Part shown: piece by piece, positions 8,258 to 8,994 of the stretch
Layout: each line of letters begins with the position of its first letter
Numbering within the stretch: position 1 is the stretch's first letter
Origin: Gemmatimonadota bacterium
GTDB lineage: Bacteria > Gemmatimonadota > Gemmatimonadetes > Gemmatimonadales > Gemmatimonadaceae
Direction: 5' to 3'
Assembly (NCBI GenBank): GCA_003223455.1
Contig: QHVE01000049.1
Coordinates: forward strand, 1 to 36,355
DNA: 36,355 bases
Notes under the pieces: generated by a model
Database searches by the model: none
What the model was told of the DNA's origin: nothing
The model's input: only the letters and a program-made list of their open reading frames with translations
Position numbers and translations under genes: made by a program

Positions 8258-8827
8258 TCAGGCCCTGATGATATCAGCTATTCCCTGACCCACCATACTT
8301 TCGGTGACCGTTCTGCCTCGCCCGTCCGTGTCGCTCGGACGAGCGCCGTGCTCCACCAGCAGGCGAACGATCTGCCATCGCTGCTCCGTCGCGGCGGTGG
8401 TTCCGCTCCCCCCGCGCCCGGTCTGCAAAAGTCACTCGATCGGAAGCTCGCCGGTCACGGCACATGCGGCGTGACCCACAACGCGATCGCCGCCCTTCAA
8501 CCGCGACGCGGTCGGCTGCCAGCCGCGCGCCAATCGATCCTGCAGCAGCTCGTCCGCCGTCGGTCGATGATTCCAGACGGCGACCGCCGTCACGGAGCCG
8601 AGTCAGCTCGTGTCGAAGCTGAGATAATGCGTCGGACCGAACGGCACGACGACGTCGTGCGTGTATTCGTCCTGCGTGACGATCTCGGACACGTTCAGCG
8701 GCGGATGCATCGCGCGCCCGGCCGCCAGTACATCGGCGAGTGTGAACGCGGCGCCGAACATGGCTCGGGCGCGATCGAGGATCGCGGCGTCGGCGCCGTG
8801 AACGGCGCGAAGGGTGATTTTCCGCAT
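8258..8827 (-). pseudogene. Ankyrin-repeat-like gene interrupted by two in-frame TGA codons
   Basis: From the ATG at 8827 (GAGGA four bases upstream) one frame runs 190 codons to TGA at 8258-8260, interrupted only by TGA at 8603-8605 and TGA at 8430-8432. All three segments look like one protein: MRKITLRAVHGADAAILDRA up to THYLSFDTS; then LGSVTAVAVWNHRPTADELL up to TGELPIE; then LLQTGRGGSGTTAATEQRW with IVRLLVEHGARPSDTDGRGR, a recognisable ankyrin repeat. Each TGA is one transition from TGG (Trp) or CGA (Arg). TGA is a normal stop in neighbouring genes, for example in the overlaps at 9610 and 29180, so genome-wide recoding is excluded. Nonsense decay is the simplest reading. The first 74 codons could still give a short product. 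Confidence 0.6.
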
Positions 8828-8994
8828 GGAGTCCTCGCGGCCCAATATGCGGCTTCGCCGGCGGCATGCACCAGCCGACGCTCGCGTGCCGTCCGGCTGG
8901 TTGGCCGGATCCGTCCGCTCTCCGCCCGGCCGCACCCGCGCGCCGATGGCCGGATGCGCCCATCGTTCGGGTGTATCATTCACCCGGAGATCAC

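Follow-up and report, generated by a model that had tools for sequence, protein, structure and literature searches.

Does a reading frame broken twice by the same stop codon belong to a gene in decay, or to a gene in which one of the stops is meant to be read? The question is raised by a 36,355-nucleotide stretch of DNA from a Gemmatimonadota bacterium, called the window here as a whole and corresponding to contig 7 of an assembly of 4.96 Mb in 127 contigs that is 96% complete. The minus strand of positions 8258-8827 holds one frame that begins with an ATG at 8827, runs through two TGA codons (hereafter called TGA1 and TGA2) and ends at a third TGA, 8258-8260. An earlier note on this DNA had joined the three segments into a single 189-residue ankyrin-like protein, and had offered recent decay, sequencing error or programmed read-through as the cause. 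Both in-frame TGA codons are indeed present, TGA1 at 8603-8605 as the note had placed it and TGA2 at 8432-8434, two bases away from the 8430-8432 that it gave. The peptide it quoted, IVRLLVEHGARPSDTDGRGR, is found in the translation of the third segment. We propose a different gene. Judged from sequence comparison, the locus almost certainly holds an intact selenoprotein gene in which TGA1 would encode selenocysteine (Sec) and TGA2 would end translation, and, beyond it, a piece of an ankyrin gene (Table 1).

Table 1. Features of the locus, with positions counted along the window
Feature	Positions	Strand	Basis
Predicted selenoprotein gene, 131 residues plus stop	8432-8827	-	Translation; ATG 8825-8827, Sec75
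TGA1, most likely the selenocysteine codon, residue 75	8603-8605	-	TGA column in 42 loci; Cys in stop-free homologues
SECIS-like hairpin, 6-bp stem, GGTC loop 8582-8585	8576-8591	-	Covariation, RNAalifold, core MFE, synonymous constraint
GAGGA, Shine-Dalgarno-like, upstream of ATG	8832-8836	-	Sequence reading
TGA2, probable ordinary stop of the selenoprotein gene	8432-8434	-	Variable homologue ends; ankyrin similarity starts 9 bases beyond
In-frame stretch with ankyrin gene 3' remnant (DNA similarity 8271-8422), predicted to lie outside the protein	8258-8431	-	Match to L007

The extent of the protein

When a collection with a single genome for each species was searched, 16 relatives of the window protein emerged, in metagenome-assembled genomes (MAGs) and isolates labelled Gemmatimonadota, Acidobacteriota, Myxococcota (Nannocystis and others) and Planctomycetota. 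These relatives are 40-59% identical to the window protein in the alignment and cover its residues 1-129, with one match reaching residue 162. A family profile built from 17 sequences likewise matches the window protein over residues 1-129, at 182.7 bits. With relatives in four genome sets, the first two segments of the frame form one conserved protein, beyond chance. The plasmid collection and the viral contigs gave no relative.

Where the homologues stop varies: among 40 sequences the end, by TGA, TAA or TAG, mostly falls 49-69 residues past TGA1; the exceptions are L026 (39 residues) and L085 (33 residues). The window protein, ending 56 residues past TGA1, fits this range. In the Nannocystis pusilla copy (L026:5187-5303), conservation of the C-terminus breaks off about 25 codons past the TGA, a pattern that resembles a frameshift or polishing error.

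The ankyrin likeness is confined to positions 8271-8422, which resemble the 3' terminus of an ankyrin gene from a genome of the same genus (L007), with 121 of 152 bases identical (∼80%). In L007 the ankyrin open reading frame is a separate gene of 246 residues, free of stops. The similarity begins only 9 bases past TGA2; the ankyrin-like DNA thus excludes TGA2, for which the normal stop of the gene is the best interpretation. Unlike ankyrin-repeat proteins, the stretch after this stop offers one partial repeat, which remains below the Pfam gathering scores (14.2 bits versus 22.7 for Ank and 13.1 versus 21.1 for Ank_4). A G+C-rich fold after TGA2 (-18.8 kcal/mol) is formed by DNA common to no homologue.

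Were both TGA codons read, the product would have 189 residues, with Sec and an ankyrin-like tail. No other stop closes the frame before 8258 and the tail does look like peptide, but the homologues end variably near TGA2, the tail occurs in no homologue examined and its DNA corresponds to the 3'-terminal part of a separate ankyrin gene; we consider this reading very improbable. The single ankyrin-like protein is best replaced by a protein of ∼131 residues and a fragment of a neighbouring gene that lies in frame by chance, TGA2 being an ordinary stop and the tail belonging to another gene. The earlier note had also named a finding that would speak against it: homologues that end at the first TGA with nothing homologous downstream. 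The homologues do not behave so at TGA1, and roughly do at TGA2.

The TGA1 column and the codons beyond it

In all 16 relatives from the species collection the frame is interrupted by a TGA where the window has TGA1, and the surrounding residues resemble FDTTULGAVTAVAVW. The family profile was also run on samples of three phyla. In the sample of the window's own phylum, 9 of 395 genomes (its own genome counted) have the family, all nine with TGA. The Myxococcota sample has it in 29 of 329 genomes, 22 with TGA and seven as weak, stop-free matches. In the Planctomycetota sample of 294 genomes it occurs in six: three have TGA, two are stop-free and one (G842) is frameshifted. The frameshift in G842 (L102, L105) falls precisely at the Sec codon site while both halves are otherwise well conserved, and may be an assembly artefact or a true loss. 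Once contigs found twice were dropped, 42 stop-bearing loci remained, the window included. The stop at the first position is TGA in all 42, never TAA or TAG, across Gemmatimonadota, Acidobacteriota, Myxococcota and Planctomycetota, and the carriers include a complete genome and further isolates of Nannocystis.

The stop-free homologues are equally uniform at this model column. They are distant (16.9-32.8 bits), and all nine have Cys. Trp or Arg, which the earlier note had proposed as the sign of decay, occurs in none of them.

Selection on the protein continues past TGA1. The comparison of codon diversity covered 39 distinct sequences and left out L100 and L101, which were identified last. Over codons +10 to +25 mean pairwise diversity is 0.376 at the first codon position, 0.328 at the second and 0.619 at the third, and this excess at the third position therefore indicates protein-level selection downstream of the TGA. 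By contrast, codons +6 to +8 (Ala-Val-Ala) are nearly frozen (GCG in 37/38, GTC in 38/39, GCC in 35/37), with a synonymous entropy of 0.17-0.30 bits versus mostly 0.8-2.1 bits elsewhere. Nearby conserved residues do vary synonymously (Pro +14, 1.56 bits; Arg +23, 2.06 bits).

Decay and sequencing error were natural first thoughts for a draft-assembly contig with two in-frame TGA codons and a tail that truly is a gene remnant: the locus would be a pseudogene, one ankyrin-like protein struck by two nonsense changes. For TGA1, however, the conservation of the codon refutes this reading, since the same stop occupies one column in 42 loci of four phyla, a complete Nannocystis genome among them. The Cys of the stop-free homologues, together with the synonymous constraint and a covarying hairpin past the TGA, also argues against it, and we give it next to no credence. 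From the three causes offered, only programmed reading survives, for TGA1 alone and in the form of putative Sec insertion.

The hairpin and the selenocysteine machinery

The frozen codons coincide with the loop and inner stem of a hairpin, gACGGC-GGTC-GCCGTc, and RNAalifold, run on 17 and on 40 sequences, picked the identical 6-bp stem both times. Across the 39 distinct sequences 95.3% of stem cells are paired. Shuffling lowers this to 85.1%, with none of 500 shuffles reaching the observed value, and stems slid along the alignment as a control pair in 78.6% of cells or fewer. Cells changed on both sides number 19 where 4.4 are expected, and such changes affect four of the six pairs (GC25/CG9; CG31/UA3/AU1; GC35/CG2; AU34/GC2); relatedness among the sequences inflates these covariation figures, although the slid controls lie well below.

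The constraints published for bacterial SECIS elements (bSECIS) are a loop of 3-9 nt with G in its first two positions, an upper stem of 4-16 bp, a spacing of 16-37 nt and an MFE of at most -7.5 (PMC13188914, Fig. 2 legend). The window hairpin agrees with each of them: a 4-nt GGTC loop, a 6-bp stem, 17 nt from TGA to loop and a core MFE of -10.8 kcal/mol. The loop of E. coli fdhF is GGUC as well. Folded alone, the window's 51 nt do no better than shuffles (z -0.03), and we discarded window-only folding as evidence for a SECIS. Two of the 39 distinct sequences, both from Myxococcota, retain the TGA but have a broken stem (L069 and L082, with one and two of the six pairs left), and the loop of L069 differs too. 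These two may use another SECIS, or may be losing it.

The genome that carries the window has the complete machinery for Sec. Its tRNA-Sec (L093:696-792, anticodon TCA) scores 72.8 bits, and SelB (367.1 bits, cut-off 242), SelA (538.7 bits, cut-off 268) and SelD (370.3 bits, cut-off 125) are all above their cut-offs. The selD gene (L110:1501-2418), ∼100 bases from the tRNA-Sec gene, itself has an in-frame TGA within CAGUAAK, at the UxxK site listed as the Sec site of SelD in a selenoprotein review (PMC13188914). This TGA is therefore an internal control, indicating that the genome decodes TGA as Sec. A second SelA-like piece (G000:C112:25572-26216, L109) directly follows the full-length selA; it scores 291 bits, spans model positions 9-228 and lies in a frame of 375 amino acids.

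The machinery also accompanies the family elsewhere. A tRNA-Sec match scoring over 65 bits was obtained in 13 of the 15 remaining homologue genomes; the other two, both Planctomycetota MAGs, gave no such match and have SelA. Of 18 TGA-form genomes, 15 have SelA above its cut-off, G060 has a partial match and G064 and G066 have none; many TGA-form genomes are MAGs that may be incomplete. Within Myxococcota, SelA is found in 20 of 22 TGA-form genomes (missing from G560 and G709) compared with 206 of 329 in the whole sample (Fisher p 0.005, uncorrected for kinship), and in only 2 of 7 genomes with the Cys form (p 0.003 against 20/22).

TGA1 could in principle be recoded in another way, as Trp by a suppressor tRNA or by simple read-through, because an open frame across a TGA leaves the residue unnamed. 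We regard this as scarcely credible: the alternative residue is Cys rather than Trp in nine of nine homologues, a SECIS-like hairpin is present, and the genome itself has the full Sec machinery with a Sec-type SelD. Owing to the conserved TGA/Cys column, the hairpin and the machinery of its own genome, TGA1 is most likely a Sec codon. On this reading, SelB carrying Sec-tRNA-Sec would bind the hairpin just past TGA1, selenocysteine would be inserted at residue 75 when the ribosome meets TGA1, and translation would stop at TGA2.

The family, its structure and its possible role

The locus resembles known bacterial selenoproteins, as the review describes them (PMC13188914), in its in-frame UGA, in a bSECIS with G at the start of the loop and a spacing within 16-37 nt, in the Sec/Cys pair, and in the Sec machinery of the genome. 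We conclude that it probably represents a new family of bacterial selenoprotein that is decoded in the usual way.

We found no earlier account of the family. Table 1 of the 2026 review lists 119 prokaryotic families or subfamilies, none with a name or motif like QDEYTHD...DTTULG...GWxPT (PMC13188914), and the accessible portions of the literature searched (including PMC13188914, PMC12013277, PMC9312934 and PMC5029168) hold no description of it. This comparison leaves out some older hypothetical families that have neither model nor accession, such as GOS_A. An NCBIfam scan of 17 members yielded no convincing match above the curated cut-off, and Pfam scans no convincing family for the protein; weak Pfam and NCBIfam matches to RPEL, DUF3558 and Nif11 leader (1/17) we put down to chance.

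The distant Cys forms (L086-L092, L103, L104) have motifs such as TQGEFHHDVV...STNCNGG in Myxococcota and VTCDGE or ATCSGH in Planctomycetota. They share the His-Asp, the Sec/Cys column, the Gly and the Pro with the TGA form, and match at 98.5% probability in a profile comparison, though the family profile had itself served to collect the set and the match is not independent. They differ in having no TGA, and SelA is missing from five of the seven Myxococcota genomes with the Cys form. Two of them were scanned against Pfam, and no family exceeded its cut-off.

AlphaFold2 gave a confident model of the window protein (pLDDT 91.1, pTM 0.84), with the element order b-a-a-b-b-b-b-a-b-b-a. The product is probably a small, single-domain, cytosolic protein. 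Structure searches with the model gave no meaningful match, the best being E 0.12 in Foldseek and Z 4.5, over 60 residues, in VIA-align, and a PDB sequence search had no match at E up to 1; the missing structural relative of a predicted model would be no proof of a new fold.

The columns invariant in the Cys set are His57, Asp58, Sec/Cys75, Gly77 and Pro89. The 17 aligned TGA-form sequences likewise show no variation at Asp58, the Sec column, Gly77 or Pro89, and almost none at His57. These residues common to both forms suggest that Sec is the reactive residue. The window protein lacks a UxxC or CxxU motif. As to a thioredoxin-like fold, like that of the thioredoxin-fold selenoproteins, the analysis observed this lack, the element order given above and no clear PDB match. 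Its only cysteine, C122, belongs to a wider pattern: 33 of 40 TGA-form sequences have a Cys 46-47 residues past Sec, 29 of them as GxxxC and four others (L022, L081, L082 and L083) outside that motif. C122 could be a resolving partner in a selenenylsulfide redox cycle. By analogy with most selenoproteins (PMC13188914), our best guess at the role is a thiol/selenol redox enzyme.

Taken together, it is quite likely, if less secure than the gene itself, that this is an undescribed family of Gemmatimonadota, Acidobacteriota, Myxococcota and Planctomycetota whose fold has no clear solved relative, whose Sec75 is backed by the conserved His-Asp and a distant resolving Cys, and whose Cys forms reside mostly in genomes without SelA. 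Standard annotation cuts short or skips such genes, and the lineages that carry the family are thinly covered by the selenoproteome literature that we found. The family would add a probable selenoenzyme, with naturally occurring Sec and Cys forms that can be compared. The gene is present in named Nannocystis strains, N. exedens DSM 71 among them, and direct testing is therefore possible.

All-against-all blastp over the locus flanks revealed no conserved gene partner beyond the genus Nannocystis. In three Myxococcota loci (L106, L107 and L108), the gene is divergent from a neighbour that we take, from its motif, to be a HAD-like phosphatase gene, and lies ∼3-13 kb from selA and close to what are presumably rplI and rpsR. 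We set this arrangement aside as a functional link, because it resembles a regional order common to related genomes.
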